Of a DNA stretch of 64,000 nt, positions 596 through 21,925 are shown piece by piece. The notes beneath the pieces were generated by a model that did not search any database, had not been told where the DNA came from, and saw only the letters and a list, made by a program, of their open reading frames with translations. Positions within the stretch are counted from its first letter, which is position 1. Every line of letters begins with the position of its first letter. The DNA is taken from NCBI RefSeq assembly GCF_900177245.1, contig NZ_FXBM01000003.1:310001-374000 (forward strand), in the 5' to 3' direction. The DNA is from Rathayibacter oskolensis. Its GTDB lineage: Bacteria > Actinomycetota > Actinomycetes > Actinomycetales > Microbacteriaceae. The position numbers and the translations under genes are program-made.

Positions 596-1267
596 ATGAC
601 CGTCACCCGTCCCGAGGCCCTGTTCAGCGTGACCGGAGTGGTGGTGCCCGGGGATCAGCGGGGTCGCCTCCTCGGGTTCCCGACCGCGAACATCCCGCTC
701 GCCGAGAGCGGGCTCGCCGACGGCGTGTATGCGGGCACCGTGCACGACCGGGCCGACGGCTCGACGCACGTCGCGGCCGTCTCGGTCGGCCGCCGCACCA
801 GCTTCTACGGACGGGACGGGCAGCGCCTGCTCGAGGCGCACCTGCTCGACTTCTCCGGCCCTCTCTACGGGCACGAGATCACGGTCGAGCTGTGCGCGAA
901 GCTGCGCCCGCAGCGCCGCTACCGCGACGCGGAGGCGCTCGTGCAGCAGCTGGGGCGCGACATCGCCGCCACCCGCACCTGGGCTCGCGAGCAGTCCGCC
1001 GAGGCGTCGCGGCGACGAGCCGACGTGCGGCCCCGGGCGAAGCGGGCGCACGAGACGAGCGAGCGGATCCGCCGCGAGCGGGAGGAGCAGAGGCTCGCCG
1101 CGATCGCGCGCACCGTGACCGAGGTCGGCCCGACCGAGGTGACGCACGAGCTGGTCGCCGTGCGCAGCCGCGTCCCCGTGGCCTACCTCCGCTGGGCCTA
1201 CCCGAGTGTCGACGAGCTGCTCGCTGCTGCCGCGTCGTTCGCTCCCCGCTCCGACGCCCCGAGCTGA
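596..1267 (+). CDS. Stand-alone riboflavin kinase (FMN-forming), no FAD synthetase domain
   Basis: Riboflavin kinase phosphorylates riboflavin to FMN with ATP. Residues about 10-130 match the kinase domain of bifunctional RibF: GRLLGFPTANI with the PTAN metal/ATP motif near residue 29, DGVYAG near 42, and a C-terminal HLLDF..LYG..I.VEL...LRP stretch. The N-terminal FMN adenylyltransferase domain of RibF is absent. A charged C-terminal extension (about 135-223, rich in Arg and Glu) has no assignment from me. The start is ATG behind CGAGGAGG. The gene stands about 2.1 kb from a block of FMNH2-dependent monooxygenases, which suggests a dedicated FMN supply; that link is inference. Confidence 0.85.
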   Translation: MTVTRPEALFSVTGVVVPGDQRGRLLGFPTANIPLAESGLADGVYAGTVHDRADGSTHVAAVSVGRRTSFYGRDGQRLLEAHLLDFSGPLYGHEITVELCAKLRPQRRYRDAEALVQQLGRDIAATRTWAREQSAEASRRRADVRPRAKRAHETSERIRREREEQRLAAIARTVTEVGPTEVTHELVAVRSRVPVAYLRWAYPSVDELLAAAASFAPRSDAPS

Positions 1268-1325
1268 GGCCGCGGGCCCGCGGGCAGCCCCCAGGCGGGC
1301 GGCGGCCTCAGACCCGCGCGTGTGG

Positions 1326-2963
1326 CTAAGCGGCCGACCGGACCGCCCGCGCCTGAGCCGAGGCGGACCGCCGCGTCGAGAGCACCACGCCGGCGGCGAC
1401 GTAGTAGCTGTGGCTGAACTCCCTCGCGCGACCGTCCTCCCCCACGAGGAGCCTCTCCTTGAGGAGCAGGAGCGTCCCCGGCGCGACGCCGAGCAGACCG
1501 GCGGCTCGGTCGCCGGCCCGCACGGCGTGCACGCTGGTCTCGATCCGGTCGAGCGACACTCCGTAGCTGTGGCGGAACAGATCGTCGAAGTCGACCCGGG
1601 TCTCGTTCGTCAGCGGACGGGGGTGCTCCACCGGTTCGGAGTAGCGGATGTAGATGACGAAGGGTCGGCCGTCGCGGCGCGAGAGGAAGTGGCCGACGGA
1701 CACGGTCGGGCAGTCCGTCCCCAGCCGCTCGCCGACGATCGGCGGAGTCGGGATGGTCGCCGCCGAGATGCTCTCGGTGCGATGGCGCCCGGTGTCCTCG
1801 GGGGACCAGCCCATGGCGTTGTCGATCGTGAGCTCGGCGATCGGGACGACGACCACAGTGCCGTGGCGACGATCCCGCCGGATGAGGCCCTCGTCGACGA
1901 GTTGCGCGAGAGCGGCGCGCACGGTGTTGCGCGAGGTGCTGAACTCCCGGGCGAGATCGTCCTCGACGAGCTGCTCGTCGACGCGGAAGAGCCCGCCGCG
2001 GATGGCCGCCCGCAGTTCGGAGTGCACATCGAGCACGGAGCGGCGGTGCGCCGGAGGTCCCTGCTCGGCCGGGCCGGTCGGCGCCGCGGGCCCGCCCCGC
2101 TCGAAGCGCACCCGCGGGACCACGGTCGGCGCGTGCGTCGACGCTCCCTCGAGGACGGTCGTCAGCGCGACCCGCGAGGCGAGGTAGTGCGTCACGCTGT
2201 ACTCGCGCGGGACCCCGTCCTCGCCCCAGATCTGGCGGGACTTCACCAGGAGCGCGGTGCCCGGGGCGACTCCCAGCTGCGCGGCCGCGCGCTCGTCGGC
2301 TCCCTTCGCCTCGACCCAGCAGTCGATCGAGCCGATCCGGGTGCCGTAGGTCTGGGCGAACAGCGTCTCGAAGCTGCCGTCGCGTCCGCCGGAGACGGAG
2401 GGGCGCTCGGTGCCCGGAGCGAGGCAGAACCGGGTGTAGAGAAGGCTCGGCCGGCCGTCGAGGAGGTCGACCATCTCGGTGCAGTGCACCTGCGCGCTGT
2501 CGGTCCCCAGCATCGTCCGCGTGACGGGGGTCGACGGGATCCAGCGGCTCTCGGTCGTCACGAGCTCGTGGTCGGCGTCCTCGGCCCTCGCCCAGGCGAC
2601 GCCGTTGTCGATGCGGACGTCGGCCAGGCCGCAGAGGATGACGGTGCCGGCGCGAGGCGCCCGGGAGACGACCCCCTCCTCCACCAGCAGCCGGAGGGCC
2701 GCGCGCACCGCGTTGCGGCTGACGGAGTACTTGCGCACGAGCACCGACTCCTCGAGCCGGTCGGACGGCGCGATGCTGCCCATCCGGAGTCCGGTGCGCA
2801 GCGCTCCGTGCACGCTGAGGACGGAGCGCATCCGCACGAGGTTCTGCTCCGACGCCCGCTCGCGGGCGAGTCGGCGGAACTCGCGTTCCGGCGAGTCCTC
2901 GCGGACCGAGTCCTTCCGGGCCGAGTCCTTCTGGTCCTGTCCTTGGTGAGCCGAGGGGTCCAT
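1326..2963 (-). CDS. Tandem-fused GntR/HutC-type regulator (two HTH-UTRA units in one chain)
   Basis: The 545-residue protein contains two full GntR-UTRA regulators in a row. Winged-helix 1 spans about 47-110 (recognition helix SVSRNAVRAALRLL) and effector-binding UTRA 1 about 130-270 (LGVAPGT at 230). Winged-helix 2 spans about 310-375 (STSRNTVRAALAQL) and UTRA 2 about 395-530 (again LGVAPGT at 491). Ordinary HutC-type proteins are about 240 residues and dimerise; this one looks like a covalent pseudo-dimer. The ATG at 2963 has GGAG six bases upstream and is preferred over an upstream start at 3050. It is divergent from the monooxygenase genes and is their likely ligand-responsive repressor (inference). 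Confidence 0.9.
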   Translation of the reverse strand: MDPSAHQGQDQKDSARKDSVREDSPEREFRRLARERASEQNLVRMRSVLSVHGALRTGLRMGSIAPSDRLEESVLVRKYSVSRNAVRAALRLLVEEGVVSRAPRAGTVILCGLADVRIDNGVAWARAEDADHELVTTESRWIPSTPVTRTMLGTDSAQVHCTEMVDLLDGRPSLLYTRFCLAPGTERPSVSGGRDGSFETLFAQTYGTRIGSIDCWVEAKGADERAAAQLGVAPGTALLVKSRQIWGEDGVPREYSVTHYLASRVALTTVLEGASTHAPTVVPRVRFERGGPAAPTGPAEQGPPAHRRSVLDVHSELRAAIRGGLFRVDEQLVEDDLAREFSTSRNTVRAALAQLVDEGLIRRDRRHGTVVVVPIAELTIDNAMGWSPEDTGRHRTESISAATIPTPPIVGERLGTDCPTVSVGHFLSRRDGRPFVIYIRYSEPVEHPRPLTNETRVDFDDLFRHSYGVSLDRIETSVHAVRAGDRAAGLLGVAPGTLLLLKERLLVGEDGRAREFSHSYYVAAGVVLSTRRSASAQARAVRSAA

Positions 2964-3306: not shown

Positions 3307-3328
3307 GGCGTAATGACGATGTCACTCC
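3307..3328. promoter_or_regulatory. Candidate operator 2, upstream of the first monooxygenase gene
   Basis: Left half GGCGTAA (perfect), 8-bp spacer, right half TCACTCC (5 of 7 to TTACGCC). It has the same 22-bp length and spacing as the sites at 3071 and 9828, and lies about 75-95 bp before the first monooxygenase start. Confidence 0.45.
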
Positions 3329-3402
3329 CGCAAGCCGAAGCCGAAATACGCCGTCGATAGGTTCGTGAACGTCCCTGTTCCCCCCTTTCCACGGCGGTGT
3401 CG

Positions 3403-4704
3403 ATGTCTGCTCATCCCTTCCATCTCGGCTGGTTCTACTCGAAAGGGTTCGGCCCGAAGGCATGGAAGCACGACTGGGCAGGTTCTGCCGTCGCGCGATT
3501 CACGAAGCCCGACATGGCCGTCGATCTGGCCCGCGCGATGGAGCGCGCCGGCTTCGACTACCTGATGCTCGAGGACTCCTCGAACGTCCCGTACACGTAC
3601 CAGGGCTCGCACGACGCCTACCTGCGGCACTCGGTCGACACTCCCAAGCTCGACCCGATCGTGCTCGCGCCCTTCATCACGGCCGCCACGACGAACCTCG
3701 GGGTCGTGGTGACCTGCTCGACGACCGAGTACCACCCGTTCATGCTGGCTCGCAAGATGAACGCCCTCGACCACGTGTCGGAGGGCCGGATCGGCTGGAA
3801 CGTCGTCACCGGCTCGAACGACGGCGGGGCGCAGAACTACGGGCGCGAGAAGCAGTACCCGCACGACGAGCGCTACGACATGGCGGACGAGTTCCTCACC
3901 GTCGCGCACGGGCTCTGGCGCTCGTGGGACGAGGACGCCCTGGTGCTCGACCTCGAGAACGGGGTCTTCGCCGACGGCTCGAAGGTGCACCCGATCCATC
4001 ACGAGGGGACGTACTTCCGCTCCCGCGGACCGCTCTCCTCTCCGCACTCCCCTCAGGGCTCGCCCGTCATCTGCCAGGCCGGAGGCTCGGGCCGCGGGCG
4101 CACGTTCGCCGCGCAGTGGGCGGAGACGATCATCTGCGCGGCGCGCGGGGTCGACCAGATGAAGGCCTACCGCGAGGACGTCCGCGCGAAGGCGGCCCTG
4201 GCGGGCCGCGACCCCGACTCGATCAAGGTCCTCTTCCTGATCTCGCCGATCATCGACGAGACGACGGAGGCGGCCCTAGAGCGACGCCAGGCGCGGTACG
4301 ACTTCGCCGAGCGCGAGACGGAGTTCGGGCTCGCCGCGCTGTCGCGGGGCACCGGGATCGACTTCGCCCAGTTCGCTCTGGACGAGCCGCTCCCGCGCCT
4401 GATCTCCAACGGCCACCAGTCGAGCGCCGCGGCGATGGAGGGCAAGGTCCTCCGCGACGTCCTGCGCTACCAGCGGAGCCTCGAGTGCGTCCCGCTCTCG
4501 GGCACCGCGAAGGACGTGGCCGCCGAGATGGACGAGCTGATGCAGGAGGTGGGCGGCGACGGCTTCCTCCTGAACGACAGCTACTTCTCGCGCCGCTACG
4601 TCGCCGAGATCTGCGACGGTCTCGTGCCCGAGCTGCAGAAGCGCGGCCTCACCCGATCGGCCTACGAGCACAGCACGCTGCGCGAGAACCTGATGGCGTT
4701 CTGA
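3403..4704 (+). CDS. LLM-class FMN-dependent monooxygenase, NtaA/SnaA/DszA type (copy A)
   Basis: These enzymes use FMNH2 delivered by a separate reductase plus O2 to oxidise substrates such as nitrilotriacetate, dibenzothiophene sulfone or pristinamycin precursors. The 433-residue length and the TIM-barrel signatures fit the family: FHLGWFY at the start, GRIGWNVVTGSNDGGAQNYG around residue 128, and QAGGSGRGR about 225-233. A GTG at 3397 would add two residues; I prefer the ATG at 3403, with GGCGG upstream. It is 69% or more alike by eye to the next gene, so the pair looks like a tandem duplication. The substrate is unknown. Confidence 0.85.
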   Translation: MSAHPFHLGWFYSKGFGPKAWKHDWAGSAVARFTKPDMAVDLARAMERAGFDYLMLEDSSNVPYTYQGSHDAYLRHSVDTPKLDPIVLAPFITAATTNLGVVVTCSTTEYHPFMLARKMNALDHVSEGRIGWNVVTGSNDGGAQNYGREKQYPHDERYDMADEFLTVAHGLWRSWDEDALVLDLENGVFADGSKVHPIHHEGTYFRSRGPLSSPHSPQGSPVICQAGGSGRGRTFAAQWAETIICAARGVDQMKAYREDVRAKAALAGRDPDSIKVLFLISPIIDETTEAALERRQARYDFAERETEFGLAALSRGTGIDFAQFALDEPLPRLISNGHQSSAAAMEGKVLRDVLRYQRSLECVPLSGTAKDVAAEMDELMQEVGGDGFLLNDSYFSRRYVAEICDGLVPELQKRGLTRSAYEHSTLRENLMAF

Positions 4705-4753: not shown

Positions 4754-6061
4754 ATGACGGCCTCCCCGTTCCACCTCGGCTGGTTCTACTCGAAGGGATT
4801 CGGGCCCAAGGCGTGGAAGCACGCCTGGGCCGGCTCGGCCGTCTCGCGCTTCGCCCGGCCCGACTTCGCCGTCGACCACGCGCGGGCGATGGAGCGGGCC
4901 GGGTTCGACTACTTCATGATCGAGGACTCCTCGAACGTGCCGTACACCTACCAGAACTCGCACGACGCCTACCTGCGGCACTCGGTCGACACCCCGAAGC
5001 TCGACCCGTCGATCCTCGCCCCGTTCCTCATCGAGGCGACCGAGAACCTCGGCATCGTGGTCACCTGCTCGACGACCGAGTACCACCCCTTCATGCTCGC
5101 GCGGATGATGAACACCTTCGATCACGTGTCGGACGGCCGCATCGGCTGGAACGTGGTGACGGGGTCGAACGACGGCGGGGCGCAGAACTACGGCCGCGAC
5201 AAGCAGTACCCCCACGACGAGCGCTACGACATGGCCGATGAGTTCCTGCAGGTGGCGCACGGGCTCTGGGAGGGCTGGGAGGAGGACGCGCTGGTCCTCG
5301 ATCTCGAGAACGGGGTGTTCGCCAACGGGTCGAAGGTGCACCCGCTCGACTTCGAGGGCAAGTACTTCCGCTCCCGCGGTCCGCTCTCCTCCCCGCGATC
5401 CCCGCAGGGCTCGCCCGTCATCTGCCAGGCGGGCGGCTCCGCGCGCGGCCGCCGCTTCGCCTCGGAGTGGGCGGAGACGATCATCGTGTCGGCCGGCACC
5501 GCCGAGAAGATGAAGGCCTACCGCGACGAGGTGCGAGCCGGTGCGGTGGCGGCCGGACGCGACCCCGACCGCACCAAGCTCATGTTCCTGGTCTCGCCGG
5601 TCGTCGACGAGACCACCGATCGCGCGGTCGAGCGCTACCAGCGCCTCGCAGTGCTCGACGCGAACGAGATCGAGTACCAGCTCGCGTCGCTGTCGCGGCA
5701 GTCGGGCATCGACTTCTCGCAGTTCGATCTCGACGAGCCGCTGCCCTCGACCCTGGTCTCGAACGGGCACCAGTCGATGGTCGCGCAGTGGGAGGGCCGG
5801 GTGCTCCGCGAGGTGATCACCGGCAATCCGCTCAACGCCGGGTCGCTCGGCTACGTCGGCACCCCCGACAGCGTCGCCGGCTACATGGACGAGGTGATGC
5901 AGGAGGTGGGCGGCGACGGATTCCTGATCGCGAACAGCTACTTCTCGCGCCGGTACTCCCTCGAGATCTGCGACGGGCTGGTGCCCGAGCTGCAGCGCCG
6001 CGGGCTCACCCGCACGCAGTACGAGTTCGACACCTTCCGCGACAACCTCATGGCCTACTGA
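4754..6061 (+). CDS. LLM-class FMN-dependent monooxygenase, NtaA/SnaA/DszA type (copy B)
   Basis: A 435-residue paralogue of the preceding gene with the same start (FHLGWFYSKGFGPKAWKHAW), the same GWNVVTGSNDGGAQNYG flavin-site segment and the same C-terminal VGGDGFL..SYFSRRY block. It starts at ATG behind GAGAGAAAG, 49 bases after copy A ends, and is surely co-transcribed. It differs most around residues 280-380, where substrate loops are expected, so different substrate preference or a sequential reaction is possible. Confidence 0.85.
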   Translation: MTASPFHLGWFYSKGFGPKAWKHAWAGSAVSRFARPDFAVDHARAMERAGFDYFMIEDSSNVPYTYQNSHDAYLRHSVDTPKLDPSILAPFLIEATENLGIVVTCSTTEYHPFMLARMMNTFDHVSDGRIGWNVVTGSNDGGAQNYGRDKQYPHDERYDMADEFLQVAHGLWEGWEEDALVLDLENGVFANGSKVHPLDFEGKYFRSRGPLSSPRSPQGSPVICQAGGSARGRRFASEWAETIIVSAGTAEKMKAYRDEVRAGAVAAGRDPDRTKLMFLVSPVVDETTDRAVERYQRLAVLDANEIEYQLASLSRQSGIDFSQFDLDEPLPSTLVSNGHQSMVAQWEGRVLREVITGNPLNAGSLGYVGTPDSVAGYMDEVMQEVGGDGFLIANSYFSRRYSLEICDGLVPELQRRGLTRTQYEFDTFRDNLMAY

Positions 6062-6089: not shown

Positions 6090-7019
6090 ATGATCGTCAC
6101 CGCCGTGCTCGCACTCGACCACGGAACCACCCTCGACGAGACCGTCGCGGCCGTCACCGCACTGGAGCGCGCCGGTGTCGCCGCGGTCACGGTCCTCGAC
6201 GCGGCCGACTCCTCCGGGGTGACGCCGTTCGAGTCGACGACGCTCGCCGCACATCTCGCGATGACGACCTCCACGATCGGGATCGTCGCGGCGAACTCCG
6301 CGCTCTACGGATTCCCGTACCACGCGGCACGCCGTCTGGCGACGCTGGACCACCTCGCCGCCGGACGCTCCGGCTGGATGCTCAGGACCGCGACGGGAGT
6401 CGACGAGGAGTCCGCCTACGACTGGCGCTCCACTCTCGGGCCCGCCGAGGAGCTGCACCGCGCCACCGAGTACGCCGAGATCGCGCTCGAGCTCTGGGCC
6501 TCGTGGGAGGACGGCTCGCAGTGGCCCGACGTCGTCACCGGCGACTTCAAGGACGACGCGCGGATCCACCCCATCGACTACCGATCGACGTCGTTCCGCG
6601 TGGCGGGCCCGCTCGACGTGCCGCCGTCGCCCGCCCGCCGCCCGGTGCTCTTCGGAGGCGTCCGGACCGAGCACGAGGCCGTGGCGCTCCGACCCGTCGT
6701 CGATGTCGCGATCGTCGTCGCTCGCGACCGCTCCCAGGCCGAGCGCCTGGTCTCCTCGGCGCGAGGGGCGAGCCGGATCCTGCTCGCGATCGCGACGGAA
6801 GAGGGCGGGGAGGGTCTCGTCGTCGGGGCCGCCGAGCCGATCGCGATCCTCGTCGACGAGCTCGGGGTCGACGGAGTGGCCCTCCGGGGCTCGGTGTCGG
6901 GTGCGGCCGCGATCGCGGACCTGGCGGCGCAGCTGGGCGCGACGCGCGACGAGGGGCCGACGCTCGCGGAGGCGCTCGGGATCACGGAACGGATGAGCTA
7001 CGGAGGACGGGCGGCGTGA
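6090..7019 (+). CDS. Short, diverged LLM-fold protein in the monooxygenase operon
   Basis: The 309-residue protein keeps the outline of the neighbouring barrels (early RAGVAAVTVLD strand-turn, ATLDHLAAGRSGWML near 88, STSFRVAGPLDVPPSPARRPVLFGG near 165) but is about 125 residues shorter. It has lost the GWNVVTSS..AQNYG segment, reading GWMLRTATGVDEE instead. It may be a non-catalytic partner, like the beta subunit of luciferase, or an enzyme for a different step. The ATG follows AAGGACAGGAC, and its stop overlaps the next start (TGATG). Confidence 0.7.
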   Translation: MIVTAVLALDHGTTLDETVAAVTALERAGVAAVTVLDAADSSGVTPFESTTLAAHLAMTTSTIGIVAANSALYGFPYHAARRLATLDHLAAGRSGWMLRTATGVDEESAYDWRSTLGPAEELHRATEYAEIALELWASWEDGSQWPDVVTGDFKDDARIHPIDYRSTSFRVAGPLDVPPSPARRPVLFGGVRTEHEAVALRPVVDVAIVVARDRSQAERLVSSARGASRILLAIATEEGGEGLVVGAAEPIAILVDELGVDGVALRGSVSGAAAIADLAAQLGATRDEGPTLAEALGITERMSYGGRAA

Positions 7020-8338
7020 TGAAGAAGATGCACCTCAGCGTGAACCTGAGCGAGTACGGGAGGCACTCGGGTGCCTGGCGGCATCCGGAGAGCGACCTCA
7101 CCCGGATCCCCAACACCGCCGTCTACGTCCACACGGTGCAGACGGCCGAGCGGGGCCTGTTCGATCAGGCGTTCATCGCCGACACCCCCGTGCACTCCTG
7201 GGGGCGCTCGAGCTCGACCAGCACCCGCCTCGATCCGCTGGAGCTCGCCTCGGCGCTCGCCGCCTGCACCTCCCGCATCGCGATCATCGCGACCCTCTCG
7301 ACGAGCTACAACGAGCCCTACGACGTGGCGCGCCGTGCCGCGTCGACGGCGTCGATCATGGGCGGGCGGCTGGGGATCAACTACGTCGCCTCCTCGGGAG
7401 ACGCGACCGCCCGCAACTTCGGCCGCTCGGCGCAGCTGCCGCACGACGAGCGCTACGAGAGATCGAACGAGTTCATCGAGGTCGTGACGAAGCTCTGGGC
7501 CGCGGCCGCGACTCCCGAGCTGCCCGCCGAGCGGGTGCGGCACCACGGCAAGCACTTCGACGTCGACGCGGCGCTCGACATCGCGCAGCCTCCGGCCGGC
7601 CGGCCGGTCATCGTCCAGGCGGGCTCGTCGTCGGAGGGACGCGATCTGGCGGCGCGCTGGGCCGACGCGATCTACGCGGGCGGCTCGACGCTCGAGCGGG
7701 CCAAGGAGTACTACGACGACATCAAGCGCCGAGCGGCCGCCTACGGCCGCGACCCCGACACGGTGAAGGTGCTGCTCGGCATCGCGCCGTTCCTCGGCGA
7801 GACGGAGGAGGAGGCGCGGGCGCTGCAGACGGCGCTGGACGACAACCACGCCGAGGGCGCCGACGTGATCGCCCATCTCTCCGGCCTCCTCGAGCACGAC
7901 CTCACCGCCTACGACCCCGACGGGCCGCTGCCGTTCGATCTGCTGCCGACGGTCACGACCGCGAGCATCAGCCAGGCGACGCTCTTCACGCGGATGGCGC
8001 GGGAGGAGGGGCTCACCATCGCCGAGGTCGCCTACCGCTCCTACGTCGGCGGCCTCGCCAACATGCAGTTCGTCTCGACGGGCACGCCCGTGCAGGTCGC
8101 GGACACGATGGAGGAGTGGTTCCTCGCCGGCGCCTGCGACGGCTACTCCCTCGTCGCCCCGATCCTGCCCCGGACGATCGACGACTTCGTCGACCTGGTC
8201 GTCCCGATCCTCCAGGAGCGGGGACTCTTCCGCACCGCCTACGAGGGATCCACGATCCTCAGCCACTTCGGCCTCGACGCCGTCCACCCCCACGCGGTCG
8301 ATCCGCGTGCCGAGCTCGCCCACGAGAGAGTCGCCTGA
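7019..8338 (+). CDS. LLM-class flavin-dependent monooxygenase (copy C, distinct subgroup)
   Basis: The 439-residue member starts MKKMHLSVNLSEYGRHSGAW, unlike the FHLGWF start of its neighbours, but carries the family landmarks GRLGINYVASSGDATARNFG near 118-137, PHDERYERSNEF and QAGSSSEGRDLAARWAD. It is translationally coupled on both sides: its ATG overlaps the previous stop as TGATG, and its own stop overlaps the next ATG. A second ATG at 7028 is a possible start. Its divergence from copies A, B, D and E suggests a different substrate or step. Confidence 0.82.
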   Translation: MKKMHLSVNLSEYGRHSGAWRHPESDLTRIPNTAVYVHTVQTAERGLFDQAFIADTPVHSWGRSSSTSTRLDPLELASALAACTSRIAIIATLSTSYNEPYDVARRAASTASIMGGRLGINYVASSGDATARNFGRSAQLPHDERYERSNEFIEVVTKLWAAAATPELPAERVRHHGKHFDVDAALDIAQPPAGRPVIVQAGSSSEGRDLAARWADAIYAGGSTLERAKEYYDDIKRRAAAYGRDPDTVKVLLGIAPFLGETEEEARALQTALDDNHAEGADVIAHLSGLLEHDLTAYDPDGPLPFDLLPTVTTASISQATLFTRMAREEGLTIAEVAYRSYVGGLANMQFVSTGTPVQVADTMEEWFLAGACDGYSLVAPILPRTIDDFVDLVVPILQERGLFRTAYEGSTILSHFGLDAVHPHAVDPRAELAHERVA

Positions 8339-9849: not shown

Positions 9850-9948
9850 TCGCGACCGGCGATGAAACACGCGCTGCCTACCGTTGACTCATCAGCGGCA
9901 CCGACGAGTACCACCCTCCGCGCAGCGGTATCCCAAGGAGTGAACGAG

Positions 9949-11250: not shown

Positions 11251-11270
11251 GAAGTGATGCGAGGACAGCT

Positions 11271-12137: not shown

Positions 12138-12967
12138 GCTCCGTCCGCGAGCTGGTCTCCCTCCGCGCCGAGGGAGTCACCAAGACCTTCGGTCGGGGAG
12201 CGAACCGGCACGTCGCGGTGAAGCCGGTCGACCTCGAGATCAACTCGCGCACCGCTCTCGGCATCGTCGGGGAGTCCGGATCGGGCAAGTCGACGCTCTC
12301 GCGCCTGCTCGTCGGCCTCGAGAAGCCGACCGCGGGCGACGTGACCCTCAACGGCCGGTCGCTGCAGGTCCTGCTGCGCTCCGCCTCCGGGACCCTCGAG
12401 CTCCGCAGGAGCGTCCAGTACGTGGCGCAGGACACGTTCTCGTCGTTCGACCCGCGACGCACCCTCCGCGACGCCGTCGCGACGCCCCTCCGGGTCCTCC
12501 GCGGGGTCACCGGCGCTGCGGCGGAGTCGGAGATCCGCGACGTGCTCGACCTGCTCCGACTCGACCCGGCGCAGCTCGACCGCTACCCCGGCCAGCTCTC
12601 CGGCGGGCAGCGCCAGCGGTTCTCGCTCGCCCGCTCGCTGGTCGTGAGGCCTCGGGTGCTGCTGTGCGACGAGGTCGTCTCGGCGCTGGACGTCTCGGTC
12701 CAGGGCTCGGTGCTGAACATGATCCGCGACTACTGCGAGACCTACCAGGTCGGGCTGGGCTTCGTCTCGCACGGCCTGCCGGCGACCGCCTTCGTCTCGG
12801 ACTCGCTCCTCGTCATGCGCGACGGCGAGGTCGTCGAGCACGGGCCGACCGATCAGATGCTCGAGCACCCCGAGCACCCCTACACGGTCTCGCTCCTCGA
12901 CGCCTACACCCGCGCGCCCCGCCACCTCGTGCCCGTCGAGCCCATCCAGCCGGAGCTGACCGCCTGA
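12134..12967 (+). CDS. ABC importer ATPase, peptide/nickel type (DppF-like)
   Basis: The second ATPase of the importer, 277 residues. It has Walker A GESGSGKS near 46-53, the signature LSGGQRQR, and Walker B RVLLCDEVVSALD (the usual PT after DE is VV). It is coupled to the preceding ATPase by a GTGA overlap and to the following MFS gene by an ATGA overlap. Family knowledge suggests that it works as a heterodimer with the preceding subunit. Confidence 0.87.
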   Translation: MSSVRELVSLRAEGVTKTFGRGANRHVAVKPVDLEINSRTALGIVGESGSGKSTLSRLLVGLEKPTAGDVTLNGRSLQVLLRSASGTLELRRSVQYVAQDTFSSFDPRRTLRDAVATPLRVLRGVTGAAAESEIRDVLDLLRLDPAQLDRYPGQLSGGQRQRFSLARSLVVRPRVLLCDEVVSALDVSVQGSVLNMIRDYCETYQVGLGFVSHGLPATAFVSDSLLVMRDGEVVEHGPTDQMLEHPEHPYTVSLLDAYTRAPRHLVPVEPIQPELTA

Positions 12968-14457: not shown

Positions 14458-15497
14458 CCGCGTTCCTGACCCGCAACCGCTGGTGGATCACCCGCGCCCT
14501 GGTGCTCCCGCTCCACATCGCTGTCTTCGCGACCGTCGCGTTCTTCCTCGTCCGGCTGGTGCCGGGCGACCCCGTCCTCGCCCGGATGGACACCAGCGCC
14601 GGCTTCAGCCAGGAGGACTACGACTCGGCCGCCGCGTCGATGGGTCTCGGCGGATCGCTGTGGGATCAGCTCGTGAGGTTCTGGCAGCAGCTTCTGGGCT
14701 TCGACCTCGGCACGTCGCCGATCACCGGCCGCCCGGTGTGGACCGAGATCATGACCCGGCTCCCGTCGACCATCGAGCTCGTCACCCTCGGGCTGCTGGG
14801 CGCCGTGCTGCTCGCCCTCACCCTCGCCCTGGTGATGATGCTGACGAGCAACCGCCACCTGCACGCGGCCCTGCGCTTCTACGGACGCCTCGCGGGATCG
14901 GTGCCGGACTTCGCGGTGGCGATCCTCGGTCTGGTGCTCTTCTACACGTTCCTCCGGATCGTGCCCGCCCCCATCGGCCGCGTCGACCCCGGCGCCACGC
15001 TGCCCGTCATCACGGGCTTCCCGCTCATCGACACCGTGATCAGCGGTGACGGCGCCGGCTTCGTGTCGCTGTGGGCCCACTACGCCCTGCCGCTCGCCGT
15101 GATCGTCCTGGTGCACACGCCCAGCCTGTGGAAGCAGCTCGGTCTCGGCGTCGAGGAGCAGGTCTCCGCCCCGTCGACGCTGTTCAAGATCGCCTCCGGA
15201 GCGACCCGCTTCTCGGTCTACCGCAGCATCCTGCGGCGGGCGAGCGCCTCCTCGGTCGTGATGCTGGGCGCCATGTTCGGCGGGCTCATCGGCGGAGTCG
15301 TGGTGATCGAGCAGCTGTTCGGATTCGGCGGCGTCGGCACCTTCGCGATCACCTCGGTCGAGACCCTCGACTTCCTCGGCCTGCAGGGCTTCCTCGTCGT
15401 GATCGCCGCCCTCTGCCTCATCGTGTTCTTCCTCGTCGACATCGCCAACATGCTCCTGGATCCGCGCCGCCGACCGGGCGCCCGAGTGGACGGATGA
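14454..15497 (+). CDS. ABC importer permease, DppB-like
   Basis: A membrane permease of the binding-protein-dependent family, 347 residues. It shows the typical N-terminal helix, the VPGDPVLARM motif (residues about 40-49) and a C-terminal EQLFGFGGVGTFAITSVE region preceded by the permease coupling loop. The GTG start overlaps the MFS stop (GTGA), and its own stop overlaps the next ATG. It pairs with the following permease. Confidence 0.88.
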   Translation: MTAFLTRNRWWITRALVLPLHIAVFATVAFFLVRLVPGDPVLARMDTSAGFSQEDYDSAAASMGLGGSLWDQLVRFWQQLLGFDLGTSPITGRPVWTEIMTRLPSTIELVTLGLLGAVLLALTLALVMMLTSNRHLHAALRFYGRLAGSVPDFAVAILGLVLFYTFLRIVPAPIGRVDPGATLPVITGFPLIDTVISGDGAGFVSLWAHYALPLAVIVLVHTPSLWKQLGLGVEEQVSAPSTLFKIASGATRFSVYRSILRRASASSVVMLGAMFGGLIGGVVVIEQLFGFGGVGTFAITSVETLDFLGLQGFLVVIAALCLIVFFLVDIANMLLDPRRRPGARVDG

Positions 15498-16387
15498 CTC
15501 CCATGACCACGCTCACCCGCCTGCGGCTGCCCTCGCCGCGCACCGCCACCCGAGCCACCCGCAGGCGCGCACCCGTCTGGCTGGGGACCGTCCCGTTCGG
15601 GATCCTCGTCCTGATCACGCTCTTCGCGCGGCTCATCGTGCCGTTCGATCCCGAGCGCGTGGCCGGCCCGTCCAATCTCGCGCCCGACGCGACGTACCTC
15701 TTCGGCACGGACGCGACCGGGATGGACGTCTTCTCGAGGACGATCGCGGCCACGCAGATCAACCTCCTGATGGCGTTCCTCGTCACGATCTTCGCGACCG
15801 CGATCGGCCTGATCATCGGTCTGATCGTCGGGATGAACGAGGCGACGACCGGAGTGGTCGGCATCGCCGGTCGCGGCGTCAACCGCTTCATCGACCTGAC
15901 CGACGCCGTGCCGCCGCTGATCGTCGGCGTCGTCGTGGTCGGCCTGTTCGGGCCGTCGGTCATCAGTCTCAGCATCGCGCTCTCGGTGATCCTGCTCCCC
16001 AACCAGGTGCGGCTCACCCGGGCGGAGGTGCTGAAGGTGCGCAGCGACGCCTACGTCGACGCGGCCGCCATGGCGGGGCTCCGGCCGTGGCGGATCATGC
16101 TCCGGCACGTGCTGCCGAACTCCGCCCGCCCCGCGGTCGAGAACAGCTCGAACATCTTCGGAGTCTCGATCATCGTCTCGGCCTCGCTCGGGTTCCTCGG
16201 AGTGGGCCTCAATCCACCGACACCGGAGTGGGGCGTGATGATCTCCAGCGGGGTCTCCGACGTCATGCTCGGTGGCTGGTGGACGACCCTCTTCCCCGCT
16301 CTGGCGCTCTGCATCGCCGTCGCCTCCGCGGCGGGAGTCACCGGAGTCCTGACCCGGCTCACCCGGGGTCCGGCAGCAGCCCGCTGA
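15494..16387 (+). CDS. ABC importer permease, DppC-like
   Basis: The second permease, 297 residues. It has the DppC-type N-terminal helix followed by FGTDATGMDVFSR near 70-82, and the coupling motif DAAAMAGLRPWRIMLRHVLPN near 187-207 that contacts the ATPase. It starts at ATG in an ATGA overlap with the DppB-like gene. About 92 bases separate it from the binding-protein gene. Confidence 0.88.
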   Translation: MTPMTTLTRLRLPSPRTATRATRRRAPVWLGTVPFGILVLITLFARLIVPFDPERVAGPSNLAPDATYLFGTDATGMDVFSRTIAATQINLLMAFLVTIFATAIGLIIGLIVGMNEATTGVVGIAGRGVNRFIDLTDAVPPLIVGVVVVGLFGPSVISLSIALSVILLPNQVRLTRAEVLKVRSDAYVDAAAMAGLRPWRIMLRHVLPNSARPAVENSSNIFGVSIIVSASLGFLGVGLNPPTPEWGVMISSGVSDVMLGGWWTTLFPALALCIAVASAAGVTGVLTRLTRGPAAAR

Positions 16388-16479: not shown

Positions 16480-18213
16480 GTGAACCCCACCTCGACCTCC
16501 CGCCCCGCTCCCGCCTCCGGCGCCGTCTTCTCGGCCAGGGGCGCTGACCTCTTCTCGGCCGCGATCGGCCGGCGCACCGTGCTCGCCGGAGGCGTCTCCG
16601 GCCTCGCCGCCCTCGCCCTCGCCGCCTGCACCGGCTCCTCCACCGCCGCGACGCAGGCCACCGGCGCCGCAAAGACCGAGCTCGTCGTCGCCGTCCCCGC
16701 CCTCGCGCCCACTCTCGACGGAGTGGTCGGCGGCGGCGGTCTGACCCTCGAGTCGTTCGAGATGAACGCCAACCTGCAGGCCGGCCTCGTGCGCAATCCC
16801 TACATCGACGGCGACACCGAGGGCACCGTCATCCAGGACTTCAACGAGTACGTGGGCTACCTCGCCGAGTCGTACGAGGTCTCGGGCGACGGCCTCACCT
16901 ACACCTTCCGCCTGCGCCCCGACGTGGTGTCGCCGCTGGGCAATCCCCTCACCGCCGACGACGTGCTCTACTCCTTCGAGCGCAAGTGGAACGTCGCGAC
17001 CTACTCCAAGGGAGTCTGGCTCGCGGGGTTCGCGGGTCCGGAGGCGATCACGAAGGTCGACGACTCGACCGTCGCCTTCACTCTCACCAGCGCCGGCTTC
17101 GGTCTGACCTTCCTCGGACTGCTCGCCAACCTGCAGGGCCACATCTACGACTCCGTCGCTCTCACCGCGAACACCACGGCGGAGGACCCGTACGCCGTGA
17201 ACTGGGCGAAGACCAACGGCGGCTGGGGCCACGGCCCGTACCACGTCACCTCCCAGACGCCCGACCAGGAGATGATCCTCACCGCGAACAGCGGCTACGC
17301 CTACGGCGAGCCCTCGATCGCCAAGGTGACCCTCCGGGTCGTGGGCGACGCCGGCACGCGCGCCACCCTCGTCTCCACCGGCGACGTCGACATGGCGGAG
17401 GGCTGCCGCCCGACCGATCAGGCCCGGCTGGCGAACGCCCAGGGTGTCGTCGTGCCGTCGGCCGAGAACCCCATCGAGTACGTCGACCTCACCCTGGTCA
17501 CCAACAAGGCCCCGTTCGACAACGAGCTCGTCCGCCAGGCGATGGCCTTCGCGATCCCCTACGACGAGATCATGGAGCAGATCTACTCGGGCCGCGCGAC
17601 GGCCACGATCGGCAACATCAACCCGTCCACGAAGGGCTACTCGGTCGACTCCCTGCCGACCTACGAGTACGACCCCGAGAAGGCGCTCGCGCTGCTCGAG
17701 GAGGCGGGCGTCGACGGTGTCGCGTACACGCTCTCGGTCTCGACGGCGACCACCGACCTCGTCGACGCGAGCGTGCTGATCCAGTCCTACGCCAAGGACG
17801 CCGGCTTCGACATCGAGATCAACCAGATGCCGGCCGCCGACTTCGGCACGGCCCGCGGGCAGGCGACGGGCCAGGCGATCATCTACCGCAACCGCTGCCA
17901 GGTGCAGACGCCGACCTACTCCTGCACGATCTTCTTCAAGCCCGGCAACGACACCTCGAACCCGTCGCGGTGGGAGGACGCCTCGGCCTCGACCTTCTGG
18001 GGCTACGTCGACGCCGCGCAGGCGCTGCCGGATCCTCTGAGCGACGAGGCGGGAGAGCTCTGGATCCAGGCGCAGACGGTCCTGATCGACTCCGCGCCCG
18101 AGATCTTCGTCTGCTCCATCCAGCCGTCGCAGGTGTTCCGCACCGCGGTGTCCGGCTTCGCCTACCGCTCCGAGAACGCGATCGACTTCGGGAACATCGA
18201 GGCGACCGAGTGA
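16480..18213 (+). CDS. Substrate-binding lipoprotein of the ABC importer (family 5)
   Basis: A 577-residue extracytoplasmic binding protein. The N-terminus has a twin-arginine-like stretch (GRRTVLAGG at about 30) followed by a hydrophobic core and a lipobox LAAC with the lipidated Cys at residue 50. The long body with YTFRLRPDVVSPLGNPLTADDVLYSFER near 135-160 is typical of DppA/OppA-type proteins. The GTG start lies behind AGAGGA. It determines what the transporter takes up, but the ligand cannot be read from sequence. Confidence 0.88.
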   Translation: MNPTSTSRPAPASGAVFSARGADLFSAAIGRRTVLAGGVSGLAALALAACTGSSTAATQATGAAKTELVVAVPALAPTLDGVVGGGGLTLESFEMNANLQAGLVRNPYIDGDTEGTVIQDFNEYVGYLAESYEVSGDGLTYTFRLRPDVVSPLGNPLTADDVLYSFERKWNVATYSKGVWLAGFAGPEAITKVDDSTVAFTLTSAGFGLTFLGLLANLQGHIYDSVALTANTTAEDPYAVNWAKTNGGWGHGPYHVTSQTPDQEMILTANSGYAYGEPSIAKVTLRVVGDAGTRATLVSTGDVDMAEGCRPTDQARLANAQGVVVPSAENPIEYVDLTLVTNKAPFDNELVRQAMAFAIPYDEIMEQIYSGRATATIGNINPSTKGYSVDSLPTYEYDPEKALALLEEAGVDGVAYTLSVSTATTDLVDASVLIQSYAKDAGFDIEINQMPAADFGTARGQATGQAIIYRNRCQVQTPTYSCTIFFKPGNDTSNPSRWEDASASTFWGYVDAAQALPDPLSDEAGELWIQAQTVLIDSAPEIFVCSIQPSQVFRTAVSGFAYRSENAIDFGNIEATE

Positions 18214-18248
18214 GCGGAGGGGACCGGCCGCGCGCCGGTCCCCTCCGC
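18214..18248 (+). terminator. Strong GC hairpin directly after the binding-protein gene
   Basis: A perfect 15-bp stem (18214-18228 with 18234-18248) and a 5-base loop begin at the base after the TGA stop. No T-run follows. Such hairpins often protect the 3' end of a binding-protein message or cause partial termination, lowering the output of the downstream MFS genes. That role is inference. Confidence 0.6.
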
Positions 18249-18331
18249 GGCACCTCGAGAGACCCACGAGAAGGAGTTGAACCACCACGTCCTCTACACG
18301 TGCGGTCGAGCCCGCCGACGAGCGCGCGACG

Positions 18332-19783
18332 ATGCGCTCCGCCTACTCGGTCCTGGCTGTGACCAGCCTCGGACTGATGCTCATCCTGATCAACGCCACC
18401 TCGGTGAACGTGGCGCTGCCGGCGCTCTCGGAGGACTTCGGGGCGCCGGCCGCCCTCGCGGACTGGTTCCTGCTCGCCTTCCTGCTGGCCAACACGGCGT
18501 CGATCCTGGTCTTCGGCCGGATCTCGGACATGATCGGCCGCAAGCGCATCTACCTGTGGGGAATGGCCGCCTTCATGGTGCTGAGCGCTCTCGCGGTGAT
18601 CGCGCCCGACCCCGGCACCTTCATCGCCGTCCGCGCACTGCAGGGCGTCTCGGCGGCGACCATCGTCGCCAACACCTCCGCCCTGGTGGCCGACGCCTTC
18701 CCGGCGAAGCGCCTGGCCTACGGCCTCAGCCTCAATCTCACGGCCGCCGCCGTCGCGAACACGCTCGGCCCTGCCGTCGGCGGTGCGCTGGTCTCGACGT
18801 TCGGCTGGCAGTCGGTGTTCCTCGTGAACGTGCCGTTCGGCATCGCGGCCCTCGTGCTCGGCATCCGGTTCCTGCCGTCCACCCGCGCCGGGACCCGCGG
18901 TGAGCGCTTCGACTTCGCCGGCGCCGTCCTCTCGGCCGCGGGCCTGGCCGCCGTGCTGTACGGCGTCAACCGCGTGTCGGCGTCGGGGCCCGGCGACCCG
19001 TGGGTGTGGGCGTGCCTCAGCCTGGGTGCGGTGCTGATCACCCTGTTCGTCGTCGTGGAGCGGCGCGTCCGGCATCCGCTGGTCGACGTGGCCCTGGTGA
19101 GCGATCGCAAGAGGGCGCTGGCCTACGGCGCCGCGTTCTTCAACTCCTTCGCTCGGGCGGGCGTCACGCTGCTGGTCGTGCTGCACCAGCAGATCGTCGG
19201 CGGTCGCTCGGCGGCCGAGGCCGGCATCGTGATCATGGTCATGGCCCTCGCGATGGTCCTGGCGACTCCGCTGGCCGGGCGCCTCTCCGGCGTGCTCACC
19301 GTGCGCACCCTCGCCGCGGTCGGCGGGGGGCTCCTGGTGCTCGGCCTCGCGGGTCTCGCCTTCTTCTCCCGCGGGGCCGACGTGCTCCCCGTCAGCATCT
19401 GGCTCGTCCTCGTCGGCGTCGGGATCGGCGTCTTCACGACGCCCAACACCGCCGCGATCATGTACGGGGTGCAGCCGGCCCGGCGCACCGTGGCCAACGC
19501 CGTGCGCTCGATGCTCTACAACAGCGCGGCGACGCTGGGGACGAGCGTCTCCCTCCTCGTCATCAGCGCCTCGGGCATCGACAGCTACGCCGAGCCCGAT
19601 GCGAGCCCGGCGGTCGAGACCGGCTTCACCGTGGCGATGCTGGTGCTCGCCGCGGGCGCCCTGCTCGCACTCGTCTGCGCGCTGGCGCGAGGCGGGCCGT
19701 GGCGGACCAGCGCGCTGCCGCAGACCGGGTCGATCTCGATCGTCCCGCGCGACGGCCGCCGCGACGGCGAGGCCGCCGCGTGA
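18332..19783 (+). CDS. MFS transporter, DHA2-like, copy 2
   Basis: The protein is 483 residues from ATG 18332, with MFS landmarks NVALPALSEDFG, GRISDMIGRKRIYLWG (motif A near 60-75) and GPAVGGALVSTFGW. It is a clear paralogue of the MFS gene at 12967. The start is odd: the only good ribosome site (AAGGAG, 18271-18276) stands 10 bases before an in-frame ACG at 18287, and nothing comparable precedes the ATG. The ACG could be a mutated or alternative start that would add 15 residues. The stop overlaps the next GTG (GTGA). Confidence 0.85.
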   Translation: MRSAYSVLAVTSLGLMLILINATSVNVALPALSEDFGAPAALADWFLLAFLLANTASILVFGRISDMIGRKRIYLWGMAAFMVLSALAVIAPDPGTFIAVRALQGVSAATIVANTSALVADAFPAKRLAYGLSLNLTAAAVANTLGPAVGGALVSTFGWQSVFLVNVPFGIAALVLGIRFLPSTRAGTRGERFDFAGAVLSAAGLAAVLYGVNRVSASGPGDPWVWACLSLGAVLITLFVVVERRVRHPLVDVALVSDRKRALAYGAAFFNSFARAGVTLLVVLHQQIVGGRSAAEAGIVIMVMALAMVLATPLAGRLSGVLTVRTLAAVGGGLLVLGLAGLAFFSRGADVLPVSIWLVLVGVGIGVFTTPNTAAIMYGVQPARRTVANAVRSMLYNSAATLGTSVSLLVISASGIDSYAEPDASPAVETGFTVAMLVLAAGALLALVCALARGGPWRTSALPQTGSISIVPRDGRRDGEAAA

Positions 19784-21201
19784 GCGCGACCCTCGAGGCG
19801 CCGGTCGTTCCGAGCTCCGGTGTGCGGGCGGCGGTCCTGACCACGACCTCGGTCTCGGGCTTCATGGTGTTCGGCTCCGCCTCGGCGCTCAGCGTCGCGA
19901 TCCCCTCGATGAGCGCGACGCTCACCGGCGGCGCGGAATCGGCCGCGTGGATGATCCTCGCCTTCCTGCTCGGCAACTCCGCGGCCATCCTCGTCTTCGC
20001 CAAGCTGTCCGACCTGCTCGGGCGCCGCTGGTTCTACCTCGGCGGAGTGATCGCCTTCCTGGTCGGGTCGATCGTCTGCTGCGTCGCGACATCCGACAGC
20101 GTGCTGATCGCGGCCCGGGCGCTGCAGGGTCTCGCCGCGGCGAGCGCCGTGGCCAACTCCACCGCCGTCCTCAGCGACGTCATCCCGGTCGCGCAGCTGC
20201 CCCTCGTGCTCGGGATCAACGTGACGATCGGCGGCCTCTCGACCCTGGCGGGCCCGCTGCTGGGCGGGCTGCTGCTCGAGTACTTCGACTGGCGGGCGGT
20301 CTTCGTGGCGACGCTGCCGCTAGCCGCTCTGGCCATCGGAGTCGGCTGGCGCGCTCTGGCGCACGTGCACGCCCCGCCGTTCCGCAGCTTCCGGTTCGAC
20401 CTCGTGGGCGCGGTCCTCTCGCTCGCGGGGATCGGCGGCCTGCTGCTGGCGGGGGAGTGGCTCGCGGCCGAGCCGACCGCGCCGGCGAGCTGGCTCCTGC
20501 TCGGCGGCGCCGTCCTCGCGGTGGTCGTCTTCGCCTCCACGCAGTCCCGCCTGGCGCGACGCGGCGAGCGCGAGCCGCTGCTGGATCCGGCGGTCGTCGG
20601 CGGCTCGCGCGCGCTGGTGTATCTCGCGAGCCTGTGCATCTCGTTCGCCTTCGGCTCGGTCATCGTGCTCGTCGCGCTCTACCTCCAGGCGCTGCGCGGA
20701 GCGAGTGCGCTCGAGGCCGGTGCCATGGCCGTGCCGATGGGCGCGGCGATGATGATCGGGGCGCCGAGCGCCGGCTGGGTGGGGCGCTGGGTGCCCGCTC
20801 GCGCGCTCACCGTCACCGGCGGGGTCCTCGTCGCCCTGGGGCTCGCGGCGCTCGCGGTCGAGTTCGCCGTCGGCGCGGACCCGGGGTGGATCGTCCCGGG
20901 GCTGATCGTCATCGGGCTCGGCGAGGGATTCGTCATGGCGTCGATCACCCGGCGCGTGATGCAGGGCGTCGCCGCCGATCGGCGGGCCGTCGCGAACGGC
21001 TTCCGCTCGGTGCTGCACAACGGGTCGCTGATGCTGAGCACAGCCGTCGTGTTCGGCATCGTCACCGCCTTCTCGGGCGCGGCAGCGCTCTCGGGAGGAG
21101 CGGTCGCGGATCCGACCGGGTTCGTGATCGCCGCCGCCGTGCTCGCGCTGTCGTCCGCCGCGGGAGCCGTCGCGGCGGCCCTGTGGCGCCCGGTCGCCTG
21201 A
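19780..21201 (+). CDS. MFS transporter, DHA2-like, copy 3
   Basis: The third MFS carrier of the island, 473 residues. It has SVAIPSMSATLTGG, AKLSDLLGRRWFYLGG (motif A), LQGLAAASAVANS and GPLLGGLLLEYFDWR. It starts at GTG in a GTGA overlap with copy 2, so the two are made together. Two adjacent, diverged DHA2-type carriers might act on different products of the pathway. The substrate cannot be inferred from sequence. Confidence 0.86.
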   Translation: MSATLEAPVVPSSGVRAAVLTTTSVSGFMVFGSASALSVAIPSMSATLTGGAESAAWMILAFLLGNSAAILVFAKLSDLLGRRWFYLGGVIAFLVGSIVCCVATSDSVLIAARALQGLAAASAVANSTAVLSDVIPVAQLPLVLGINVTIGGLSTLAGPLLGGLLLEYFDWRAVFVATLPLAALAIGVGWRALAHVHAPPFRSFRFDLVGAVLSLAGIGGLLLAGEWLAAEPTAPASWLLLGGAVLAVVVFASTQSRLARRGEREPLLDPAVVGGSRALVYLASLCISFAFGSVIVLVALYLQALRGASALEAGAMAVPMGAAMMIGAPSAGWVGRWVPARALTVTGGVLVALGLAALAVEFAVGADPGWIVPGLIVIGLGEGFVMASITRRVMQGVAADRRAVANGFRSVLHNGSLMLSTAVVFGIVTAFSGAAALSGGAVADPTGFVIAAAVLALSSAAGAVAAALWRPVA

Positions 21202-21244
21202 TCAGGCCTCGACGAGGCCGTTCCACCGAGAGAAGGAGACCGTG

Positions 21245-21925
21245 ATGGACTACGCCGTTCCCCCGCCCGCTCAGACGACCGTGGCCCTCGCCGGGTCGAG
21301 TGACCTGTGGCCCGTCCGGCGCGTGTTCTGCGTGGGCCGCAACTACGCCGAGCACACGCGCGAGATGGGCGGGGACCCTCGGCGCGAGGCTCCGTTCTTC
21401 TTCATGAAGCCCGCCGACGCGGTCGTCGCAGCCGAGGGCGACCTCCCCTATCCGCCGCTGACGGCGGATCTGCACCACGAGATCGAACTCGTCGTCGCCA
21501 TCGGCACCGCGGCCGTCGACGTCTCGGTCGAGGAGGCAGCCGGCACCGTCTTCGGCTACGCCGTGGGCATCGACCTCACGCGGCGCGACCTGCAGGCCGA
21601 GGCGAAGAAGCACGGCCGACCGTGGGAGTGGGGCAAGTCCTTCGACCGGTCCGCTCCCGTCGGTGCGATCCTCCGACGCGACGACGTGCTCGAGCACGGC
21701 GCTGTCTGGCTCGACGTCGACGGCGAGCGGCGCCAGACCGGCGACCTCGGCGACATGATCTGGTCGATCCCCGAGATCGTCTCGGCCCTCTCGAGGTCCG
21801 TGGCCCTCCAGCCGGGCGATCTCGTCTTCACGGGCACCCCGGCGGGCGTCGGCCCGATCGAGCGCGGCGACCGCATCGAGGCGGGAGTCGACGGCGTGGG
21901 CGAGATCTCCCTCCGCATCGTCTGA
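21245..21925 (+). CDS. Fumarylacetoacetate-hydrolase-family protein (acylpyruvate/fumarylpyruvate hydrolase-like)
   Basis: The FAH fold cleaves C-C bonds of 1,3-diketo acids using Mg2+. The 226-residue length and motifs fit the small single-domain hydrolases: VFCVGRNYAEHTREMG near 28-43, PFFFMKPADAV, the metal ligand HHEIELVVAIG near 77-87, GYAVGIDLTRRDLQ, and TGTPAGVGPI near 197. ATG at 21245 is preferred over GTG at 21242 because AAGGAG then lies 6 bases upstream. As the last gene of the island it could break down a product of the monooxygenases (inference). Confidence 0.88.
   Translation: MDYAVPPPAQTTVALAGSSDLWPVRRVFCVGRNYAEHTREMGGDPRREAPFFFMKPADAVVAAEGDLPYPPLTADLHHEIELVVAIGTAAVDVSVEEAAGTVFGYAVGIDLTRRDLQAEAKKHGRPWEWGKSFDRSAPVGAILRRDDVLEHGAVWLDVDGERRQTGDLGDMIWSIPEIVSALSRSVALQPGDLVFTGTPAGVGPIERGDRIEAGVDGVGEISLRIV

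Follow-up and report, generated by a model that had tools for sequence, protein, structure and literature searches.

What does a bacterium gain from five full-length flavin monooxygenases and a short relative encoded side by side with a peptide-type importer, three major facilitator superfamily (MFS) carriers and a hydrolase? This gene block, with a riboflavin kinase and a fused regulator at its left end, is found in Rathayibacter oskolensis (assembly GCF_900177245.1), in the 64,000 nucleotides of contig NZ_FXBM01000003.1 (positions 310,001 to 374,000, forward strand) that we call the window and to which all coordinates refer. We find that the block is a real accessory catabolic island, and that its gene set is a new form of an already known plan. 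We consider it rather probable that it serves some Rathayibacter strains as an inducible catabolic (or salvage) island for a small compound, which would be imported, oxidized with FMNH2 and hydrolysed. The part of the island with most novelty is the kinase, the C-terminus of which looks like a TetR-type helix-turn-helix (HTH).

The genes were called with a codon model and identified by family scans of the window proteins. Membership of the NtaA/DmoA family of luciferase-like monooxygenases (LLMs) was taken as a TIGR03860 score over the curated cut-off of 279.7 bits. The block reads as follows:

596..1267, plus strand: riboflavin kinase (RFK) with a putative C-terminal TetR-type HTH (PF01687, models, structure matches, conservation)
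1326..2963, minus strand: tandem GntR-UTRA / GntR-UTRA (HutC-like) regulator, a single chain (ATG at 2963; frame open to 3050)
3397..4704, plus strand: LLM_A, FMN-dependent monooxygenase of the NtaA/DmoA family (start GTG 3397 or ATG 3403)
4754..6061, plus strand: LLM_B, monooxygenase of the NtaA/DmoA family (73% identity with LLM_A)
6090..7019, plus strand: LLM_s, short LLM, probable NtfO1-type subunit (best PDB match 7e36_A; alignment)
7019..8338, plus strand: LLM_C, probable NtfO2-type partner of LLM_s (best PDB match 7e36_B; alignment)
8338..9654, plus strand: LLM_D, monooxygenase (family scan, PDB search)
9862..11250, plus strand: LLM_E, monooxygenase (alternative ATG at 9949)
11271..12137, plus strand: ABC importer ATPase, DppD/OppD type (family scans)
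12134..12967, plus strand: ABC importer ATPase, DppF/OppF type (family scans)
12967..14457, plus strand: MFS carrier 1, DHA2-like (family scans)
14454..15497, plus strand: ABC permease, DppB/NikB type (family scans)
15503..16387, plus strand: ABC permease, DppC/NikC type (family scans)
16480..18213, plus strand: solute-binding protein, family 5 (SBP_bac_5; family scans)
18332..19783, plus strand: MFS carrier 2, DHA2-like (family scans)
19780..21201, plus strand: MFS carrier 3, DHA2-like (family scans)
21242..21925, plus strand: FAH-fold hydrolase (PF01557)

The plus-strand run from LLM_A to FAH (3397-21925) has 15 genes in the order listed, and includes a five-subunit importer of the Opp/Dpp type, with two ATPases, two permeases and a family-5 binding protein. 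The three MFS carriers have TIGR00711 (efflux_EmrB) as their best model, at 145-198 bits and under its cut-off of 230.2. The regulator contains two GntR and two UTRA stretches, and its halves are 40% identical to each other. The gene identities given in a sequence-only reading of this DNA (five full-length LLMs and a short one, importer, three MFS, FAH, RFK and fused regulator) are all borne out by the family scans. Its statement that almost all of the genes are joined by ATGA/GTGA overlaps was too strong: six of the 14 junctions between LLM_A and FAH overlap (three by 4 nt and three by 1 nt) and the other eight have gaps of 5-207 nt.

All five full-length LLMs score above the family cut-off (LLM_A 411.7, LLM_B 402.9, LLM_C 403.9, LLM_D 423.5 and LLM_E 400.8 bits), and pairs other than LLM_A/LLM_B are 31-56% identical. 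The 309-aa LLM_s stays below it, at 130.6 bits. A PDB search with LLM_A, LLM_C, LLM_D, LLM_E and LLM_s returned DszA, DmoA, YtnJ and 7e36_B among the nearest solved LLMs. The best solved match of LLM_s is chain A of 7e36 (E 2e-31) and that of LLM_C is chain B (E 7e-78). 7E36 is the deposited structure of NtfO1-NtfO2, which together with StmO1/StmO2 are heterodimeric LLM hydroxylases with complementary gaps (PMC8027225). We find the same gaps here. By alignment LLM_C and 7e36_B lack a side-loop segment that LLM_s, 7e36_A and the other LLMs of the window have; LLM_s keeps this segment and lacks both the HD(E/L)RY segment, present in LLM_C as HDERY, and a long C-terminal stretch that would hold the lid. 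These segments presumably correspond to the side loop tail and the lid described in PMC8027225. Five of the six flavin-site residues changed by mutation in NtfO2 (F56, T101, T133, H151, Y155 and Q203) are kept in LLM_C by hand reading, T133 being replaced by Ala. As in NtfO1/NtfO2, the extra segment is found only in the short chain, and the longer C-terminal half and the flavin residues only in the long one; LLM_s is likewise short and divergent, and its gene overlaps that of the full-length LLM_C. It is therefore likely, judging from sequence, that LLM_s and LLM_C are the halves of an NtfO1/NtfO2-type heterodimer, and the enzyme set probably comprises this heterodimer and four further full-length LLMs. 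Unlike NtfO1/NtfO2 and StmO1/StmO2, which are biosynthetic enzymes of streptoseomycin/nargenicin-type pathways, this predicted pair lies in an island of transport and oxidation genes.

In a sample of 15 genomes of the genus, the 14 genes from LLM_A to MFS carrier 3 lie in the same order beside the tandem regulator in three: Rathayibacter sp. VKM Ac-2754 (G001 in our numbering, which we use for other genomes as well), G010 and G013. We call this arrangement the type I island. Identities to the window are 66-78% for LLM_s, the least conserved of the LLMs, 70-82% for the regulator and 79-97% for the remaining genes. A gene order kept in three other genomes is more than chance. At E <= 1e-40 the tandem regulator is present in precisely the three island-bearing genomes, and it shares this phyletic pattern with a close binding protein and a close FAH; the FAH relative is 64-90% identical in these three, and the best in the other 12 genomes is 39-40% identical (Fisher p 0.002). 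In G001 RFK and FAH adjoin the island, and genes for a short-chain dehydrogenase/reductase (SDR), an FAD oxidase and a small protein follow as in the window. In G010 and G013 the FAH lies elsewhere, in a longer frame that it shares with an alpha/beta hydrolase and of which it forms the C-terminal part. Since it nevertheless shares the three-genome pattern, the island is an accessory block with a functional satellite, the FAH. The SDR, FAD oxidase and small gene were not found in the stretches fetched from G010 and G013, and as RFK and FAH are away from the island there too, the block seems to occupy another site in these genomes. The idea of a block conserved as a unit thus holds for LLM_A to MFS3 and the tandem regulator, and extends to RFK and FAH in only one of the three relatives.

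A second, distinct type of island is found in four genomes of the genus (G001, G005, G008 and G013). The type II island has a kinase-HTH gene at its head and further contains a GntR-UTRA regulator, permeases, a fused ATPase, a binding protein, a flavin reductase, relatives of LLM_D (64-65% identity to the window) and LLM_E (46-47%), an alpha/beta hydrolase and an MFS carrier; Pfam assignments come from parts of G008 and G013, and the regulator and hydrolase of G005 and G001 were assigned by frames of like size and place. By BLAST the flavin reductase is in all four, 84-100% identical to the G008 copy. In G010 a sixth copy of the kinase-HTH gene within Rathayibacter lies 8-13 kb from a relative of the Opp-type importer, and the 34 kb viewed contain no LLM match. 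Four Rathayibacter paralogues of the binding protein (39-44% identity) also have LLM matches in the stretches fetched around them.

Outside the genus, full synteny of the block was not found in the genomes searched. Among 396 order genomes, the binding proteins that come next in similarity are 38-42% identical to that of the window; at E <= 1e-60 nine genomes have a relative, counting G001, and LLM matches lie in the 20-35 kb fetched around it in seven of the eight non-Rathayibacter genomes (a raw count; the exception is G435). LLM_D at E <= 1e-130 is found in three of the 396 genomes (best four candidates each), among which G382 and G474 carry other islands of LLM, importer, RFK and HTH genes. 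The island in these two (L081:3890 to L082:2508 in G382, L083 and L084 in G474) is still larger, having eight full-length LLM-like matches and a short one as well as an importer, one MFS, GntR, a riboflavin kinase and an HTH frame. Over 174 columns LLM_s shares 34% identity with the short LLM of G382, which suggests the same type of subunit there. The general kind of LLM plus SBP_bac_5 importer thus recurs and is not new. The EDTA operon emo/epp of Chelativorans reportedly has one NtaA-family FMNH2-dependent LLM, an SBP_bac_5 ABC importer and its own flavin reductase, and since it already joins an LLM to such an importer, the plan of the island is known. The four full-length LLMs searched do match EmoA (5dqp), although each of these scores higher with DszA, DmoA, YtnJ or 7e36_B. 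Unlike emo/epp, the island has five LLMs and a short one, three MFS carriers, a tandem GntR-UTRA regulator and RFK-HTH, with no reductase relative found in the window. The view that the system is undescribed therefore does not hold for its kind, of which this exact set is a new form.

The kinase is a protein of 223 aa, with PF01687 at 108 bits over residues 10-129 and the HTH at about residues 157-217. It retains the PTAN motif, and by hand count its T30, N32 and E80 align with T208, N210 and E268 of Corynebacterium FAD synthetase, the last of which is the catalytic Glu; the motif and the Glu aligned to E268 are invariant across seven copies. A bifunctional RibF was considered and rejected, as PF01687 is the only family at E <= 0.001 and the NCBIfam RibF models match solely from model position 169 or later. 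In the AF2 model the HTH has a pLDDT of 81-91 over residues 161-210, and the structure matches listed for the C-terminal domain are TetR-type folds; the modelled domain thus appears to have the TetR DNA-binding fold. Pfam TetR_N gave zero matches to it at E up to 5, where the HMMER filters discard most weak matches. The sequence-only reading, which spoke of a private riboflavin kinase, was right as to the kinase but overlooked the HTH, as it did the subunit character of the short LLM.

In a scan of genome contigs that detects close relatives only, the kinase matched solely the G001 protein (80% identity), and among 299 genomes of the family no full-length RFK-HTH was matched outside the genus (E <= 1e-22, best nine candidates per genome). 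The wide synteny across Microbacteriaceae that might have been expected was not seen. A profile of the HTH, searched in the 396 order genomes with the best 13 candidates per genome scored, gave 26 hits; at E <= 1e-5 nine of ten lie within 1.5 kb of an RFK, in five genomes, and none of the 16 weaker hits does. At five of these nine loci RFK and HTH are in one reading frame (two in G001 and one each in G388, G474 and G382) and at four they are neighbouring frames (G382, two in G474, and G666), with an LLM gene in the fetched neighbourhood of six. In a class-wide sample of 394 genomes, HTH hits at E <= 1e-5 occur only in G001, G269 and G979, and no kinase is present in the stretch examined around the hits in the last two. 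In G666 and G382 (L094 and L082), genes for RFK, a separate HTH frame, a flavin reductase (PF01613) and an FMN reductase (PF03358) stand together. An attached-HTH module for the supply of FMN and FMNH2 is the simplest reading, and the flavin reductases beside RFK in these two genomes, like those held by all four type II islands, fit it. Arthrobacter plasmid clusters (L001, L002) similarly have an RFK together with genes for LLMs and flavin reductase within 24 kb, but this is a stand-alone RFK without HTH, accompanied by one or two LLMs, and the annotation of the stretch shows no Opp-type importer.

The literature that we searched (open-licence papers) described no RibF-type kinase with a TetR-type HTH. 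RibR of Bacillus subtilis is said to have a C-terminal extension and LLM and ABC genes as neighbours. Like RFK-HTH it is a monofunctional flavokinase, and it has a regulatory role; however, PMC12542839 describes it as RNA-binding, whereas the extension of RFK looks like a DNA-binding fold. The archaeal RbkR, a bifunctional riboflavin kinase-regulator, likewise combines an HTH and a riboflavin kinase in one protein, but according to PMC8305020 its HTH is N-terminal and its kinase, by a cited title, of the archaeal CTP-dependent type, whereas RFK-HTH is a bacterial RibF-type kinase with a C-terminal TetR-type HTH. We tentatively propose, as a possibility that we hold well short of probable, that RFK-HTH is a bacterial flavokinase-transcription factor: riboflavin or FMN (with ATP) would be bound in the RibF-type kinase domain, and the TetR-type HTH would control the RFK and LLM promoters, perhaps at the element described below, and so tune FMN supply and FMNH2-dependent oxidation. 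Such a protein would be a convergent counterpart of RbkR with an unrelated kinase. No Rfam family, FMN riboswitch included, reaches its gathering score in the window. One FMN riboswitch is found in each of the 15 genus genomes, so that RFK-HTH may have a role there.

The promoter element has the consensus GGCGYAAT, with a less strict second half near GTMAC. Two of its sites in the window are these:

495..503, plus strand: GGCGCAATG element, 101 nt upstream of the RFK-HTH start (alignment, k-mer test)
3307..3315, plus strand: GGCGTAATG element in front of LLM_A, conserved in each of the four type I islands

In the aligned upstream regions, every one of the seven Rathayibacter RFK-HTH genes has GGCGCAAT, ahead of the start by 84-101 nt, and every one of the four LLM_A genes has GGCGTAATG, ahead of it by 90-97 nt (the spacing in the window being counted from a start one base off ATG 3403). 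In 1,000 resamplings no 8-mer was common to more than five of the seven RFK regions. Outside the defining sets, the element is found too in G666, where it precedes the reductase-kinase genes by 97 nt, and in G022, where it stands 109 nt ahead of the kinase gene. In three type I islands (all but G010), the tandem-regulator gene also has a GGCGTAAC or GGCGCAAT site facing it. Its presence upstream of both the RFK-HTH and the LLM_A genes suggests one regulon. Between GGCGTAATG and LLM_A there is a second strongly conserved block, GCCGAAATACGCCGT (3340-3354), near-identical across the four type I islands. At 229-283, some 310 bp before the RFK-HTH start, we also observe a perfect inverted repeat of 25 bp around a 5-nt loop. 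It is richer in A+T than its flanks and could be a terminator, an operator or what is left of a mobile element.

For the island as a whole we suggest that the Opp/Dpp-type importer takes up a small polar compound, which FMNH2- and O2-dependent monooxygenases of the NtaA/DmoA/DszA family would cleave or hydroxylate, one of them probably being the LLM_s/LLM_C heterodimer with its flavin site on LLM_C. The FAH-fold hydrolase could act on a carbonyl product, with an alpha/beta hydrolase sharing in the hydrolysis in two genomes, and the MFS carriers could transport products or excess substrate. The tandem GntR-UTRA protein would sense the substrate or an intermediate, while RFK-HTH would make FMN for the monooxygenases and probably couple flavin supply to transcription through its TetR-type HTH. 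What the sequences themselves show is the gene content and its conservation, the build and recurrence of RFK-HTH, the complementary gaps of LLM_s and LLM_C and the common promoter element; the substrate, the direction of transport, the chemistry and order of the steps, the ligands of the regulators and the binder of the element are what we infer. Import and oxidation, as the sequence-only reading had them, fit the gene families; its stepwise order of oxidations is unsupported. Substrate clues were sought in co-located genes, namely the joint FAH and alpha/beta hydrolase frame of G010 and G013 and the alpha/beta hydrolase of the two type II islands scanned; these are weak hints, which would fit Baeyer-Villiger chemistry too.

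Several observations weigh against this proposal. None of the substrate clues is decisive. No relative of five flavin reductase queries was found in the window (E <= 1e-3), so that the reductase must come from elsewhere. RFK and FAH adjoin the island in one of its three relatives and lie away from it in G010 and G013, which makes their membership partly a matter of functional reasoning, and in G013 the run is split between LLM_D and LLM_E by 2.6 kb with two genes on the opposite strand. At three of the nine RFK-HTH loci the 20 kb fetched contains no LLM match. The element is absent from the 250 bases upstream of RFK in G388, G382 and G474_C8 (with rough start codons) and is thus not universal, and the full-length RFK-HTH model is of medium confidence (pLDDT 70.6, pTM 0.49). 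Finally, DHA2 carriers are usually exporters, and the block could therefore be read as one for detoxification.

In that case the LLMs would oxidize a toxic compound from plants or microbes, which the three DHA2-like carriers, with efflux_EmrB as their best if sub-threshold model, would expel, and Rathayibacter is a plant-associated genus. The five-subunit importer, however, lies within the same gene run, and each of the four type I islands has retained it. In the type II islands, too, LLMs are accompanied by an importer and, in the two that were scanned, by a hydrolase; we regard detoxification as unlikely. A use in sulfur scavenging, for which we see a modest chance, deserves more weight. The LLMs would then break the C-S bonds in organosulfur compounds (sulfonates, alkylated cysteines or sulfones) under sulfate limitation, with the kinase in the part of RibR, which reportedly lies beside LLM genes in Bacillus subtilis. 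DszA, DmoA and YtnJ are among the nearest solved LLMs, and in Gordonia two genes for NtaA-type LLMs go up on organosulfur sources (PMC7661421). In the alkylcysteine-salvage clusters of B. subtilis (scm, ytn and yha), acetyltransferase and deacetylase genes accompany the monooxygenase (PMC12757645; see also PMC10863075), whereas neither is among the family hits of genes 596-21925, nor is a sulfonate-type importer or a sulfur gene among those of the island.

Two further alternatives draw on particular enzymes of the set. The best PDB matches of LLM_s and LLM_C are the two NtfO1-NtfO2 chains, and the LLMs might accordingly modify a secondary metabolite, as NtfO1/NtfO2 do in nargenicin-like pathways. 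We think this very improbable, as there is no polyketide synthase, non-ribosomal peptide synthetase or other backbone family hit among 20 genes up to 26.5 kb, and an importer lies within the island. The proximity of RFK to LLMs also recalls flavin breakdown of the Microbacterium rca type, in which the LLM riboflavin lyase RcaE acts and the cluster is said to hold a riboflavin kinase. The four full-length LLMs searched (all but LLM_B) do match RcaE (5w48), at 158-233 bits. Each of the four, however, has a better match, at 250-270 bits, in DszA, DmoA or 7e36_B, and five different LLMs with a peptide-type importer are unlike the riboflavin cluster, which has five genes (PMC12746152); we give flavin breakdown hardly any credence. 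We thus favor the import, oxidation and hydrolysis of a small compound.

Other genes of the window touch the island less directly. A LuxR-type regulator gene (21978-23519) faces the FAH gene and is not among the matches near the G001 island, where the SDR and FAD-oxidase genes come after FAH. The SDR, FAD-oxidase and UbiA-type genes at 30522-34011 resemble a DprE2/DprE1/decaprenyl-phosphoribose synthase set and are presumably ordinary cell-wall genes. At 45408-48071 lies a methionine-type ABC importer (ATPase with NIL domain, permease and NlpA lipoprotein), and at 52835-53761 an additional, separate LLM gene.

Stable C-N and C-S bonds are the targets of LLMs of this family, many of which have no established physiological substrate. 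The island offers a defined, deletable gene set with a conserved promoter element and a candidate sensor. A kinase fused to a DNA-binding-type domain would be an unusual tie of cofactor supply to gene control, and if the kinase-HTH protein does regulate transcription, it would represent a bacterial, riboswitch-free route by which cofactor synthesis is tied to demand.

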